From: a virus | Strand: one strand, 5' to 3' | DNA length: 20,340 nt | IMG/VR virus record: IMGVR_UViG_3300046010_013987 | Location: 1-20,340 of that record | Shown: positions 8,052-13,041 of the stretch, one piece after another | Numbering within the stretch: the first letter of the stretch is position 1 | Layout: each line of letters opens with the position of its first letter | The notes under the pieces: model-generated | Told to the model about the DNA's origin: nothing | Database searches by the model: none | What the model saw: only the letters and a program-made list of their open reading frames with translations | Position numbers and translations under genes: made by a program

Positions 8052-8990
8052 ATGGTCGCTCCAAACCCACGTCCAAGAACTATATCTGAAGTTAAAAGTA
8101 AATTATTAAGTCCTGCTCTTACATCACATTATGAACTTTACATGAATTTGCCAAACAGTAGTGACTTTAATTCTGTAATGCAAGCGAATGGAATTAATTA
8201 TGCAATATCTCAAGACAATATACAACTTGCATGTTCGGAAGCAACCTTACCTGGTTCTTCTTTAGCAACTCACGAAATTACAGGAGACTATACTGGGGTA
8301 ACTGAAAGACATGCGTATAGAAGAATATATGATGATAGAATCGATCTGACTTTTTATGTCGATACTAATTATACCGTTATACGATTTTTTGAAACATGGA
8401 TAAAATATATTGTTTCTGAAAGTATTTCTCCAGGATCTGATGGTAGATTGGGTTTAAGAAGTCCAAATTATTTTTATACGGTTAGATATCCTCAAGAATA
8501 TCAAACAGAATTTAGTATTACTAAATTTGAAAAAACTGGTTATAATAATTTCTATAATGGATCTAAATTGGTTTATACCTTTATGAAGGCATATCCAATT
8601 AGTATTACATCGATGCCAGTTTCTTATGAAACATCATCTCTTTTGAAGTGTACTGTTTCATTTAACTACACTAGATACTTCATAGAGAGTTTGGCAGGAT
8701 CTCCAGCACCTGCATCTGGATCTCCTCAAGCAACTCTTGGATCTAATTTAACCACTCCTCTTCAGCAGGGATTATTTAATGCAGATTCCGTGTTTATTAA
8801 TCCAGAATTTGGAATTGATACCACGGGAGGACTATCAATATCTAATGCTTTATCTTCAGGCAATAGTATTCAACAATATGAAGGAGATGAAATTATTGGT
8901 GCTATAAATTCTAATCAGAGACCTGTAGAAGCTGGTCTTCCTTATGTCGGAAGAAATGTAGGACCTATTGCACCTTTTAATGGAATATAA
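8052..8990 (+). CDS. 54: Baseplate tail-tube initiator gp54
   Basis: A 312-residue protein, close to T4 gp54 (320). It has the fold pattern of the tube-protein superfamily: a long beta-rich central region with ATLPGSSLATHEITGDYTG, a RIDLTFYVDTNYTVIRFFETW segment, and a later strand pair (YTFMKAYPISITSMPVSY; LLKCTVSFNYTRYF) typical of gp19/gp54-like tube proteins. gp54 sits on gp48 and starts tube polymerisation. Its neighbours gp48, gp53 and gp26 agree with this. The C-terminal 90 residues are Ser/Gly/Asn-rich. The nearest AGGA is 15 bases before the ATG, so the ribosome-binding site is weak. A gp19-type tube paralogue is the alternative. Confidence 0.78.
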   Translation: MVAPNPRPRTISEVKSKLLSPALTSHYELYMNLPNSSDFNSVMQANGINYAISQDNIQLACSEATLPGSSLATHEITGDYTGVTERHAYRRIYDDRIDLTFYVDTNYTVIRFFETWIKYIVSESISPGSDGRLGLRSPNYFYTVRYPQEYQTEFSITKFEKTGYNNFYNGSKLVYTFMKAYPISITSMPVSYETSSLLKCTVSFNYTRYFIESLAGSPAPASGSPQATLGSNLTTPLQQGLFNADSVFINPEFGIDTTGGLSISNALSSGNSIQQYEGDEIIGAINSNQRPVEAGLPYVGRNVGPIAPFNGI

Positions 8991-9012
8991 AAAAGAGGGT
9001 CATATGACCCTC
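8989..9012 (-). terminator. Rho-independent terminator, minus strand
   Basis: A perfect 18-base palindrome GAGGGTCATATGACCCTC (8995-9012) forms a 7-bp stem with an ATAT loop. On the minus strand it is followed by six T residues (8994-8989). It ends the small minus-strand unit at 9363-9011 and overlaps the stop codon of gp54 on the plus strand. No T-run follows on the plus strand. Confidence 0.85.
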
Positions 9013-9121
9013 AGTTTGGAGTTGGTAATTCAACTTCTATGTTATTGAGACAATTATATGCAATTATACTACCAAAAATAAGAAAAGGTGTGATTGCAAG
9101 AGAGAGAAAAAATATTTTCAT
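9011..9121 (-). CDS. Small membrane or exported peptide (36 aa)
   Basis: The minus-strand ATG at 9121 overlaps the stop of the upstream gene (ATGA), a typical coupled start. The 36-residue product reads MKIFFLSLAITPFLIFGSII at its N-terminus: one Lys followed by a hydrophobic stretch of about 20 residues, then AYNC and a polar tail (NNIEVELPTPN). This could be a signal-anchor. A lipobox is conceivable, but the residues before Cys do not fit well. Its stop codon overlaps the terminator hairpin. The coupling, hydrophobic start and terminator placement make it likely real. Function unknown. Confidence 0.6.
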   Translation of the reverse strand: MKIFFLSLAITPFLIFGSIIAYNCLNNIEVELPTPN

Positions 9122-9363
9122 TTGTCCTTCTTTAGACCTTGAGAAAGACCAATTGCACTAACCACACCAGTCAGTCCATAGATTCCCCCCCACAGTCCCA
9201 ACCAAAGAGAATTGTTTCGGTGAATTTGGGAAACTTCTGGAGCAACTTTATGGTATTTGTAAGCAGTATCATATTCTTGAACATACCATACAAAACATGC
9301 ACCAGTAGCGACAGTTGTCACCGAAAGTGCAGATGCCAGGTAGAAGTTAAGAAGTCCTTTCAT
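9118..9363 (-). CDS. Two-span membrane protein (81 aa)
   Basis: The frame is open back to a TTG at 9450, but the only ATG is at 9363 and a TATAAT lies 22 bases upstream, so 9363 is chosen. The protein has two hydrophobic segments, about residues 4-28 (LLNFYLASALSVTTVATGACFVWYV) and about 52-74 (LWLGLWGGIYGLTGVVSAIGL), separated by a polar loop, with a lysine-rich end (LKKDK). The size and topology resemble small phage inner-membrane proteins, holins among others, but no motif proves that. It is transcribed against the surrounding late genes, with its own terminator after the next gene. Family not recognised. Confidence 0.65.
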   Translation of the reverse strand: MKGLLNFYLASALSVTTVATGACFVWYVQEYDTAYKYHKVAPEVSQIHRNNSLWLGLWGGIYGLTGVVSAIGLSQGLKKDK

Positions 9364-9384
9364 GTGTTTGTTTGAACTGTAGTT

Positions 9385-9390
9385 ATTATA
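9385..9390 (-). promoter_or_regulatory. Possible promoter -10 (TATAAT) of the membrane-protein unit
   Basis: TATAAT is present on the minus strand 22 bases before the ATG at 9363. No -35 hexamer is visible at 16-18 bases; the inverted repeat at 9402-9415 occupies that place. It may need an activator, or it may be chance. Confidence 0.4.
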
Positions 9391-9401
9391 GCGTGTATTG
9401 T

Positions 9402-9415
9402 CTCCCCTTGGGGAG
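9402..9415. repeat. Inverted repeat CTCCCC-TT-GGGGAG
   Basis: Two perfect 6-base arms separated by TT lie in the divergent gap between the membrane-protein unit and gp26. They cover the position where a -35 box would be expected for the minus-strand TATAAT. It is GC-rich against very AT-rich surroundings and has no T-run on either side, so an operator site is more likely than a terminator. Confidence 0.45.
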
Positions 9416-9457
9416 TTAGTAGACGGTTTCCTTTCTGGCACACCATACAATAATTTC

Positions 9458-9465
9458 CATAAATA
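9458..9465 (+). promoter_or_regulatory. T4-type late promoter (CATAAATA) for gp26 and the hub genes
   Basis: CATAAATA fits the NATAAATA late element. The transcript would start near 9471, leaving about 24 bases to the gp26 ATG, with an AGGA at 9487-9490. It is well placed to drive the long plus-strand hub/tail operon. Confidence 0.6.
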
Positions 9466-9494: not shown

Positions 9495-10214
9495 ATGCCA
9501 TTACCTAAGATTTCTACGCCAATTTATGAACTTGAATTGCCATCAACAGGAGAAACGGTTCAATATAGACCCTTTCTGGTAAAAGAAGAAAAGGTACTAG
9601 TAATTGCTTTAGAGAGTGAAGATACTAAACAAATTACTACTGCCATTAAAACAGTTATTAAGAACTGCATTCTAACTAAGAATATAAAAGTAGAAGCACT
9701 TCCGACGTTTGATATAGAATATCTTTTCCTTAATATTAGGGGTAAGTCTGTTGGGGAAGAATTGGAAGTCAATATCATTTGTCCAGACGACGGAGAAACA
9801 CAAGTTCCTGTAAAAATTGATATTGATTCAATTAAAGTTCAAAAGAACGAAGATCATACTAATAGAATCAAAGTTGATGATAGTATCATGATGGAAATGA
9901 GATATCCATCATTAGATCAATTTATTAAAAATAATTTTGATTTTAATGATAAAAATGCCATGGATCAATCATTTGATCTAATTGCAAGCTGTATTGATAA
10001 AATTTATACTGAAGATGAAGTTTGGTCTTCTGCAGACGTTACTAAAAAAGAATTGAATGAATTTTTAGAGCAGATGAACTCTTCACAATTTAAACAAATT
10101 GAAAAGTTCTTTGAAACTATGCCAAAACTTTCACATACAATTCAAGTTAAAAATCCATCTACCGGTGTTGAAAGTGATGTCGTGCTTGAGGGTCTATCAA
10201 GTTTTTTCGTGTAG
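9495..10214 (+). CDS. 26: Baseplate hub assembly protein gp26
   Basis: A 239-residue member of the T4 baseplate gp26 family (T4 gp26: 208 residues). Features seen: an N-terminal MPLPKISTPIYELELPSTGETV with YRPFLVKEEKVL, the most recognisable stretch of the family; a helix EDTKQITTAIKTVIKNCI; a central EYLFLNIRGKSVGEE(L)EVNIICPDDGE with a following beta-strand; and a C-terminal helical part (LDQFIKNNFDF ... FDLIASCIDKI ... FLEQMNSSQFKQIEKFFETMPKLSHTI). gp26 is needed for hub assembly in T4 and resembles tail-assembly chaperones that precede the tape measure in other phages. It is the first gene of the plus-strand late operon and is followed 2 bases later by the gp51-like frame. Confidence 0.9.
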   Translation: MPLPKISTPIYELELPSTGETVQYRPFLVKEEKVLVIALESEDTKQITTAIKTVIKNCILTKNIKVEALPTFDIEYLFLNIRGKSVGEELEVNIICPDDGETQVPVKIDIDSIKVQKNEDHTNRIKVDDSIMMEMRYPSLDQFIKNNFDFNDKNAMDQSFDLIASCIDKIYTEDEVWSSADVTKKELNEFLEQMNSSQFKQIEKFFETMPKLSHTIQVKNPSTGVESDVVLEGLSSFFV

Positions 10215-10232: not shown

Positions 10233-10402
10233 TTGAGAACTATTTTCGTCTAAATTTTGCCTTAATGCAGTATCATAAATATTCATTAACGGAGATAGAA
10301 AATATGATGCCTTGGGAAAGAGACATTTATGTTACTCTTTTACAACAACATCTTGAGGACGAAAAATTAAAGCACGATCAAGAAAATGCCAATTTCCTCT
10401 AA
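10226..10402 (+). CDS. 51: gp51-like hub assembly / tail-chaperone-like small protein (58 aa)
   Basis: Start choice: ATGs at 10217 and 10226 are both in frame. The second has AGG at 10213-10215 at a 10-base distance and gives MDLENYFRLNFALMQYHKY, so it is preferred. The short protein continues with LTEIENMMPWERDIYVTLL and a charged helix. The MPWERDIY element resembles the end of tail-assembly chaperones, and by synteny (gp26 followed by gp51) similar cyanophage genes are labelled gp51. T4 gp51 is far longer (249 residues), so homology is uncertain and the symbol should be read as syntenic. The gene overlaps the next large gene by 17 bases. Confidence 0.6.
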   Translation: MDLENYFRLNFALMQYHKYSLTEIENMMPWERDIYVTLLQQHLEDEKLKHDQENANFL

Positions 10403-13041
10403 ACCCGATGAGATTACAGACGATAAAATTTTAAGATACAAAAGAAAAAATAAAAATTAAAAAAACTAAAATAACTGCAGAAAGTTTTGGAGTTAAAAAA
10501 ACAGAAGACTTTGTTCCCAAAGCCCTTCTTGGTGGGACAGGAGTTTCTGCAATTATTAAAAGACCCGAATCTTCTTTATATAAACCAGAAACTCTAAAGA
10601 AGGATGAATCTAAATCTTTAGAAAACTCTTTAGTCACCATAAAAGATTCTTTAAATTCAATTCTGGAAAGTTTAACAAACCAGAATAAAACCAAACAAAA
10701 AGATGCTGAATTTGAAAGAAAGAAAAAGGAAAGAGAAAAGAGAGATACTGCAGAATCGAAGTTAGAAAAAAGATTTGATACTCTTAAAAAAATAGCGAGT
10801 AAAATTATTGCACCAGTAAAGGGAATTCTTGATAAAATTATTAATTTCTTTGTGCAAATTTTTCTTGGTAGAGTAGTAATCAAATTACTTGAGTGGTTAG
10901 CAGATCCTCAGAACGCAAATAAAATTAAATCTATTTTGAGATTTATTGGAGATTGGTGGCCTGCTCTTCTTGGATCTTATATTTTATTTGGAACTACATT
11001 TGGTAGATTTATAAGAGGTACGGTTGGATTACTGAGTAGATTTATATTTCAAATAGGAAAGGTTGCAATACCCAGACTTCTTGGTCTTATTGCAAAGAAT
11101 CCACTAGCGGCTTTAGTAGTTGGAACCTCTGTTGCTGGAACATTAGCAAGAACTGGAGAAAGAGAAAAATTAAAACCGGAGTTAGAAAAGCAAAGAGAAA
11201 GTGTAAAGAAAACGGAAGAAGATAAAAATGCTCCTTGGTATCAAAAACTTGGGGGATTTTTTGCTAAACAGGAATTAACAGTTGGGCAACAGAATCAAAG
11301 TATAGTTGCACCAGTTCCTGGAGCTATGTTTAGTGGTGGCGGACTCGCTGGTGGGTTTGTAAGTGGAGAGAAAGGTGTAGATAAAGTTCCTGCCATGCTT
11401 AGTGATGGCGAATTTGTAATGTCTCGTGGTGCCGTCTCTAAGTTTGGACTTCCATTTTTGGAGTCACTTAATCTTGCAGGTGGTGGAACAAACAAACCTA
11501 AAGTGATGAGTGGAACCACCTATGCTGCTGGAGGTGGATTAGTGGGATCTGATAAAAAAACAGATCCTTCTTATAGAAAAAATGAATTTTCCTTAATGAG
11601 GCAAAAGAAGGAAGAAAATAAGGTAATACAGTCTCTTCAGGGATATGCAAAATCTTTTCTTCCAAATTCTAAAAATGATCTGTTAAATTCTATTGATAGT
11701 TTAGTAGATACCCTAAAAAATAAATCAAGTGGTGGTCCAGATGTTGGATCTGTAATGGGAAAGGATAGTAATATTTCATCTGAAAAAGTTTCTACCGGAT
11801 CTTTATTAACAGATCCTATGGGGGCAATAAGGAGGATTGCTTCTAAATCTAGTACTCCTAAGATACCTGAATTACCTTCCGGTGGATTTAAGATACCCAA
11901 ACTATCTTCCGTTGGATTTAAGATACCTGAATTACCAAGTCCTAAAAAAGGCGGATTTGTAGATAGTCTTAAAAGTGCAACTTATAGAGATGCTGGATCA
12001 ATTTATGCAAAACAAATGCTTGGTGGGTTTGGTGGTCCTGTAAGTGAAAGAGATTTGTCAAAAGAATCTCAAGCAGAATTGCAAAAAGCAATTCAAAGAG
12101 CAAAAAAGAGAACTGGTTCTGAGATTGCAAAAGCGGAAGCAAAAATAAAAGAACTAGAAGCTTCTGGTGCAAATAAAACTCCTAAAGGTAGAGAATCTTT
12201 AGCAACACAAAGAAGTTTCTTGAAAAAATTAAAGGAAGGTGGAATTAGAGTTCAGTATACAGATTATGCTGATGAAAAAGGAAACTTAAGCGAATCTGCT
12301 AAGAATGCTAAGAATATTCTTGGGCAATTCTGGGCTAAAGAAAGAGGTAAAAAAGAAGGTGGGGGATATCGTATTGAAGATAAGTATGACTTTGATATGA
12401 TAAAAATAAAGGATGCAAAGACTGGTAAAATGCGTGATATGACTGGTGGAGAACTTCTCAGTCAGGGTGTATTTGGAAAAGATAAAACAACTCAACAAAG
12501 ACTTCAGGCAGCGTATTTATTAAATCCTTTCAGAGGTAAAGGTGATGTTGATATGGTTCTTGGTGGAAAGAGAACTGCAGCAGAGTCTTTAGGATTGACA
12601 GGAAGTAAAACTTTATTGGGCGGAATGCTTGGTATTTCTGGGAAACCGAAAGATAAAAATACTCAAGCACTTGAAGCAAAGCGTCCTTGGTGGGACAAGA
12701 TGGGTATGTTTGGGGGCACTTCTGCTCAAATGGCAAGAGATCAGAAAGCAAAACAGGATTTTGTAAAGAAGAACCCAGCAGCAAAACTTTATGATAAACC
12801 TCAAAAAAATAAAGGACAACCTTATAAATCTAGATTTGCTAGACCAAAAAATGCTGGAATTGCTTTACCAAAACCACCGGCAAAACCAAAACCAAAAGTT
12901 ACTGTTGTTAAATCAAATCAATATAGAGGTGGACAAAGAGGTAGTGGAGCAAAACCAGCAACTCAATCAACACCAAAATTTAGTGCTCAGCATAAATCGG
13001 GAGCAACTAAATCTGCATCAGCATATGGAATTCATAGGTAG
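10386..13041 (+). CDS. Large tape-measure/hub-like tail protein, reading frame broken near 10445-10460
   Basis: Reading from ATG 10386 gives MPISSKPDEITDDKILRYKR and then a stop at 10458-10460. The next frame (+1) is open from 10435 through to TAG 13039-13041 and clearly continues the same protein (KKTKITAESFGVKKTEDFVP...). Dropping one A from the A6 run at 10445-10450 joins them into about 884 residues. Domains: a charged coiled-coil-like segment with the core FERKKKEREKRDTAESKLEKR; hydrophobic helices (INFFVQIFLGRVVIKLLEWL and following); the tape-measure-type DKVPAMLSDGEFVMSRGAV motif at about residue 330; a 10-residue tandem repeat; Lys/Pro/Gly-rich remainder. No in-frame ATG lies before the hydrophobic region; the only alternative is GTG at 10852. 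It is the best candidate for the tail tape measure (gp29 role) together with the next gene. Confidence 0.75.
11860..11939 (+). repeat. 30-base tandem repeat encoding KIPELPSGGF units
   Basis: Units start at 11860, 11890 and 11920 (third incomplete), with a few base differences. They encode KIPELPSGGF, KIPKLSSVGF and KIPELPS. The repeat forms a Pro-rich linker inside the large tail protein and could vary in number by slippage. Confidence 0.85.

Follow-up and report, generated by a model that had tools for sequence, protein, structure and literature searches.

A two-gene unit read leftward between the gp54-like and gp26-like genes of a T4-like cyanophage is likely to be a mobile, interchangeable accessory cassette of the moron type, as judged from comparative sequence analysis, the steps by which it would be expressed and would exclude other phages being putative. 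The unit lies in a 20,340-base virus record (the window, meaning the whole stretch of DNA analysed), which is itself a fragment. Judged by comparison with related IMG/VR contigs, the slot between gp54 and the late promoter of gp26 is demonstrably either empty or filled with one of at least three types of cargo, and phages that are otherwise almost identical have demonstrably swapped cargo, the breakpoints falling in the terminator and in a dyad element.

The cassette as a whole occupies positions 8991..9458, its right edge being set by the empty site and its left edge being approximate. Its neighbours, both read rightward, are a member of the gp54-like tail tube family (8052..8990, +; PF23849, E 2e-20; PHROG 45, E 3e-33) and a gp26-like baseplate hub gene (9495..10214, +; PF12322, E 3e-78; PHROG 150, E 1e-82). 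The first of its two open reading frames (ORFs), m81 (9118..9363, -), has 81 codons and encodes an 81-aa protein predicted to form a two-helix membrane hairpin, whilst the second, p36 (9011..9121, -), has 36 codons and specifies a one-span peptide of 36 aa with a conserved tail, ELPTPN. An ATGA overlap joins the m81 stop to the p36 start. The first-pass annotation, made from the window alone, had described just such a leftward pair, an 81-aa two-span protein and a coupled 36-aa frame; both ORFs are borne out by their recurrence in relatives and by codon-level selection (dN/dS), the flanking genes are now identified through Pfam and PHROG, and AlphaFold2 returns the hairpin. Leftward of p36 lies an intrinsic terminator (8985..9012, -), in which a 7-bp stem (9012..8995) leads into TTTTTTATAT, with the T-tract at 8994..8985. 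A terminator scan rates it as good, its RNA fold has an energy of -12.8 kcal/mol (z -3.9) and it is found with all three cargo types (m81, c79 and c114). Its stem had been thought to overlap the gp54 stop; the terminator is present, but the stem is clear of the stop codon (8988-8990), which is overlapped by the T-tract instead. At the other end, the -10 element TATAAT of a predicted leftward promoter (9385..9390, -), conserved in position across cassettes, is followed by a 21-nt leader, and a 22-bp imperfect dyad (9420..9441, -; consensus TGGACAGATNNNNAAGTGTCCA) lies 29 bp upstream of it. Outside the cassette is the T4-type late promoter of gp26, ATAAATA (9459..9465, +), which is also present in empty sites. 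The ORFs, the -10 element, the terminator and the spacing go beyond chance, since they recur in dozens of contigs and m81 has a dN/dS of ~0.035.

Homologues of m81 were found in 43 IMG/VR loci, a profile search giving the same number, and in nearly all of these the gene sits between gp54 and gp26, always opposite in strand to both. In the sister contig L044/L045 the gp54 stop runs straight into the gp26 leader with nothing between. The 35-nt leader, TAAATAATCACACCTGAAATTTTCTATAGGACATT (TAAATAATCACACC...GGACATT), is common to this contig and the window, and the genes on either side are closely similar (gp54, 95% aa identity and 543/600 nt at the 3' end; gp26, 98% aa identity and 657/701 nt). 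A gap of ~23-43 bp separates gp54 from gp26 in six cultured cyanophages (S-SM2, Bellamy, S-SCSM1, S-PRM1, S-SRM01 and Syn9), and slot lengths overall are bimodal, at 23-53 bp versus ~395-528 bp. After filtering, 148 distinct slots were retained, comprising 94 empty, 31 with m81, 17 with c79/c42, 4 with c114 and 2 with borders only. These proportions do not reflect natural frequencies, as the cargo itself served as the query by which many of the loci were retrieved; more than 600 gp26 loci are on record. On a gp26 tree, most of whose forks are weakly supported, these non-randomly surveyed slots require at least 18 changes of occupancy and at least 35 changes of cargo state. The description of the unit as moron-like is thus upheld by its absence from the same position in close relatives (the sister contig and the 94 empty slots), together with a promoter (-10 and dyad) and a terminator recognisable by sequence in those occupied slots that were inspected. 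A 101-bp gap in L062/L063 contains a terminator-like stem and half a dyad with no genes, and is apparently a cassette scar. An 819-bp slot in contig L237 was rejected as an artefact of the broken reading of gp54 and gp26 there. The psbA-family match of that contig lies in several pieces with stops, and the contig probably carries many sequence errors, since psbA, gp26 and gp54 all read broken.

Other genes occupy the same slot, between the same borders, in contigs L047-L051. The c79/c42 cargo (24 loci) consists of a 79-aa two-helix protein and a one-span peptide, again ATGA-coupled, and the c114 cargo (5 loci) encodes a product with a signal-peptide-like start that is predicted to be secreted. 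Contigs L042, with m81, and L226, with c79, have flanks that are identical at 598/600 nt of the gp54 3' end and 701/701 nt of gp26, and this identity ends within the dyad at one border and within the terminator stem at the opposite border. L031 and L235 likewise carry different cargo between flanks matching at 570/600 and 682/701 nt. As far as contig comparison can establish it, these two pairs demonstrate that the unit moves as a cassette and are the strongest evidence for this. From the positions of the breakpoints we infer that swapping would take place during co-infection, through homologous recombination at the border elements that the phages have in common. The m81-p36 pair is also found at two other locations. 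In L033 (4001-4353) and L034 (3556-3908) it is flanked by o61 and the large gene that comes next, and is accompanied by a late-promoter-like sequence and the dyad, the usual gp54-gp26 slot being empty in both contigs. In L037 (4001-4350) and L041 (4001-4353) it lies near glycosyltransferase-like genes, a porin gene and HLIP-like ORFs (names read from sequence, not database matches), with the 30-bp promoter spacing kept. As a separate observation, the large gene that follows o61 in the window (open frame 10435-13041) has no normal start at 10386-10470, and in relatives it opens with an ATG where o61 ends; this A-rich stretch is likely to contain a one-base frame difference, caused by faulty assembly or by a genuine frameshift.

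Across the 43 loci, m81 identity ranges from 62 to 99%. Its median dN/dS is 0.035, against 0.077 for gp26, ~0.30 for p36 and 0.40 for gp54, the last value being affected by saturation, and on this measure m81 is under very strong purifying selection. The p36 peptide accompanies most m81 cassettes and is ~50% identical among them. AlphaFold2 models m81 as helices 2-38 and 42-78 (pLDDT 88) and gives c79 a near-identical outline, with helices 2-37 and 40-78 (pLDDT 85); in both proteins the second half opens with an HRxN motif. Contig L250 (4512-4802, -) encodes, in the usual slot, a 96-aa protein that is a divergent relative of m81 (~30% identical) and has the HRxN motif as in c79. Profile comparison of m81 and c79 with hhalign was not significant with A1/A2 and reached E 0.00036 at a probability of 37% once this divergent member was added. 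A distant relationship between the two proteins through the L250 member is plausible, short of proof, and is best taken as a lead because the alignments were picked after the motif had been seen. The protein m81 has no match in Pfam (E up to 1), NCBIfam or PADLOC, and its PHROG matches all have E > 0.05; divergent members have no Pfam match at E up to 5, nor has c114 even at permissive E-values. Searches with tblastn of m81, c79 and c114 against 50,697 GenBank phage records, and of m81 against plasmids, returned no homologue. Short queries do work in such searches, since a 46-aa control protein found 330 GenBank phage records. A scan of 84,980 bacterial and archaeal species, which sees conserved short patterns only, returned no relative of m81, and an origin of the gene in the host was rejected on that pattern-limited result. 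Structure and PDB searches with the two-helix hairpin gave weak matches only, none with E < 0.001.

The unit had also been credited with its own promoter. The TATAAT at 9390..9385 (-) is conserved in relatives, but a consensus scan calls no sigma-70 promoter there; in this plain scan the site is passed over and the region has no excess of promoters, and the case for a leftward promoter is therefore comparative. The first-pass annotation missed the dyad at 9420-9441, which in the window is degenerate, keeping 11/18 consensus positions, and is accompanied by no obvious -35 element. The distance from dyad to -10 is 28-31 bp in 51/53 distinct units by scripted scoring; in the two exceptions (L136 and L240) the script took another -10, and on visual inspection a better candidate obeys the spacing. 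A histogram of this spacing over all loci is biased, as some loci were fetched with the pattern itself, and a restricted version is confined to protein-fetched loci. The distance is also kept in the ectopic units, and the sequence in between is not conserved. In the window this spacer contains a perfect palindrome, CTCCCCAAGGGGAG (9410-9420, within 9393-9440, -), which is not conserved in relatives, and the spacer that includes it folds no better than shuffles. Amongst the late promoters of the loci, a hairpin-like dyad was found at 14 occupied gp26 slots and at one unrelated site. The dyad was considered as an RNA hairpin and rejected: its pairing (228 cells versus 219.8 in shuffles, with 50/2000 shuffles as high) is barely above shuffles and is broken in the window, and it is consequently treated as a DNA element.

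When IMG/VR was scanned for exact occurrences of the composite dyad-N28..31-TATAAT, 60 stretches were returned (L250-L303, some in earlier loci). The composite also lies upstream of PHROG 249 genes (porphyrin biosynthesis, CobS-like), of PHROG 685, a 46-aa gene, and of other small ORFs. By eye, the homologue of the PHROG 685 gene in the cultured phage S-PM2 has a similar arrangement. The cultured phage Syn9 has a few good individual sites before small ORFs, and the spacing from half-site to -10 in its genome has no clear peak. No further strong copy of the border element was found in the same genome among the loci examined, which are partial genomes of the carriers. It is quite possible, at somewhat less than an even chance, that dyad-N29/30-TATAAT defines a promoter class of its own in T4-like cyanophages, to which a putative early regulator binds and which controls the slot cassettes, the CobS-like gene and small conserved ORFs whilst also serving as a recombination border. 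If promoter and border are indeed one element, any cargo swapped into the slot would arrive correctly wired. In Syn9 a novel regulatory element, reportedly described by Doron and colleagues in 2016, is said to control early genes, and the dyad-TATAAT element may be the same; were this so, the element would be already known and only its role as a border would be new.

The hosts of these phages are cyanobacteria, as judged from psbA/psbD-family genes on related contigs and from a Kyanoviridae gene set, and are most likely Synechococcus-like. Such genes are present on contigs L017 (m81 in the slot), L033 (m81 at the second site), L231 (c79) and L063 (scar), with fragments on L037 and L237; the window, a fragmentary record, has no psbA. 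In such a host the cassette would be transcribed leftward from a promoter of the type used by host RNA polymerase, its TATAAT assisted by a dyad-binding factor; this promoter is not of the late ATAAATA type. Transcription would take place before or apart from late transcription and would end at the terminator, so that the rightward late genes would be left undisturbed. The two products would be co-translated and would enter the host inner or thylakoid membrane, where, in the least secure step of the scheme, they may alter the envelope to the benefit of the phage.

Two readings that would deny the unit its accessory character have little left to them. Recurrence at the same place in many contigs might mark an ordinary conserved component of the tail locus that only looks like an insert, but the first-pass annotation had suggested a search for the two ORFs in relatives, and this search revealed empty sites, other cargo and copies at two other locations; the empty sister site refutes the reading, which is now very improbable. 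That the frames are spurious ORFs in a non-coding spacer might be argued from their small size and the lack of Pfam and NCBIfam matches, but synonymous sites are near saturation whilst few amino acids have changed (dN/dS ~0.035 for m81 and 0.30 for p36), a signature of codon-level selection that refutes the idea for m81 and reduces its probability to almost nothing.

The function of the cargo is less settled. T4 Imm and Sp are superinfection-exclusion proteins; m81 resembles Imm in size and two-span topology and c114, which is predicted to be secreted and is ~100 aa long, resembles Sp. Because the cargo consists of small membrane proteins or a secreted protein, like Imm and Sp, exclusion is the favoured role, and the suggestion in the first-pass annotation of an exclusion or host-membrane function plausibly fits the topology. 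That m81 and p36 block the entry of competing phages is nevertheless proposed tentatively, from topology and analogy, at a chance distinctly below even. No sequence match to the T4 Imm family was obtained for m81 (Pfam, E up to 1) or for divergent members (E up to 5), and the near-invariance of m81 counts against it, being unusual for competition genes, which often diversify. The same near-invariance could instead suggest a conserved partner, as expected of an auxiliary metabolic gene whose product would sit in the thylakoid or plasma membrane and adjust electron flow, photosynthetic or respiratory, in infected cells; the position of the L037/L041 unit, with HLIP-like ORFs, a porin gene and further host-like genes nearby, and the psbA fragment on the L037 contig, are in keeping with this. 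The absence of homologues in the short-pattern scan of bacterial and archaeal species, the weak PDB matches and the acceptance by the slot of secreted c114, a better fit to an envelope role, make it unlikely. More unlikely still is a lysis module, with m81 as a class II holin-like protein and p36 as its partner or antiholin. The size, two-helix topology and basic C-terminus of m81 would suit a class II holin, and one member has a non-significant holin PHROG match (E 0.39), beyond which there is no sequence relation to holin families, but two-span topology is generic, lysis is an essential function although most relatives and cultured phages have no such unit, the promoter is not of late type and the cassette is exchanged with one for a secreted protein. 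Roles other than exclusion, metabolism and lysis retain the remaining weight, about a third.

Returning to the interpretation as a mobile accessory cassette, the unit, like the morons of tailed phages, is optional, lies between genes common to relatives and carries a promoter and a terminator of its own by which it would be transcribed. Morons have classically been described in temperate phages, where they are expressed in lysogens; in contrast, the carriers here are T4-like and presumed lytic, and expression of the unit is predicted from sequence. The promoter-early stem-loop (PeSL) cassettes of T4-type phages (Arbiol et al. 2010; Comeau et al. 2014, as cited in PMC4503421) likewise consist, as summarised there, of small accessory ORFs bordered by a promoter and a stem-loop terminator, and their shared borders apparently mediate shuffling; breakpoints at shared promoter and terminator elements, as in PeSL-type exchange, are found in L042/L226 and L031/L235. 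Unlike PeSL cassettes as so summarised, the unit fills one slot amid late structural genes, is read against their direction, and is bordered by the dyad and -10 at one end and by the terminator at the other. Puxty et al. (PMC4503421) judged PeSLs an unlikely explanation of the S-PM2 ORFanage. The cyanophage hyperplastic region between g15 and g18 (Millard et al. 2009, as described in PMC2984593) is, by that description, another hot spot for optional genes inside the cyanomyovirus structural block, but it takes 4-14 genes, including metabolic ones, whereas the slot described here lies elsewhere in the genome and takes one cassette of ~470 bp. A limited literature search found no description of the gp54-gp26 slot. 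Taken with these systems, the evidence supports a cassette whose mode of action resembles that of a moron and that of the PeSL cassettes in T4-type phages.

Near-isogenic natural phage pairs that differ in one cassette make the gain, loss and exchange of optional genes directly testable. A putative two-part promoter, with its fixed spacing, is common to the cassettes and to other cyanophage genes and offers a way to look for the factor that would bind it. The cargo families, strongly conserved, are absent from cultured phages, and a phenotype for them would thus be new infection biology in freshwater, estuarine or marine cyanobacteria.
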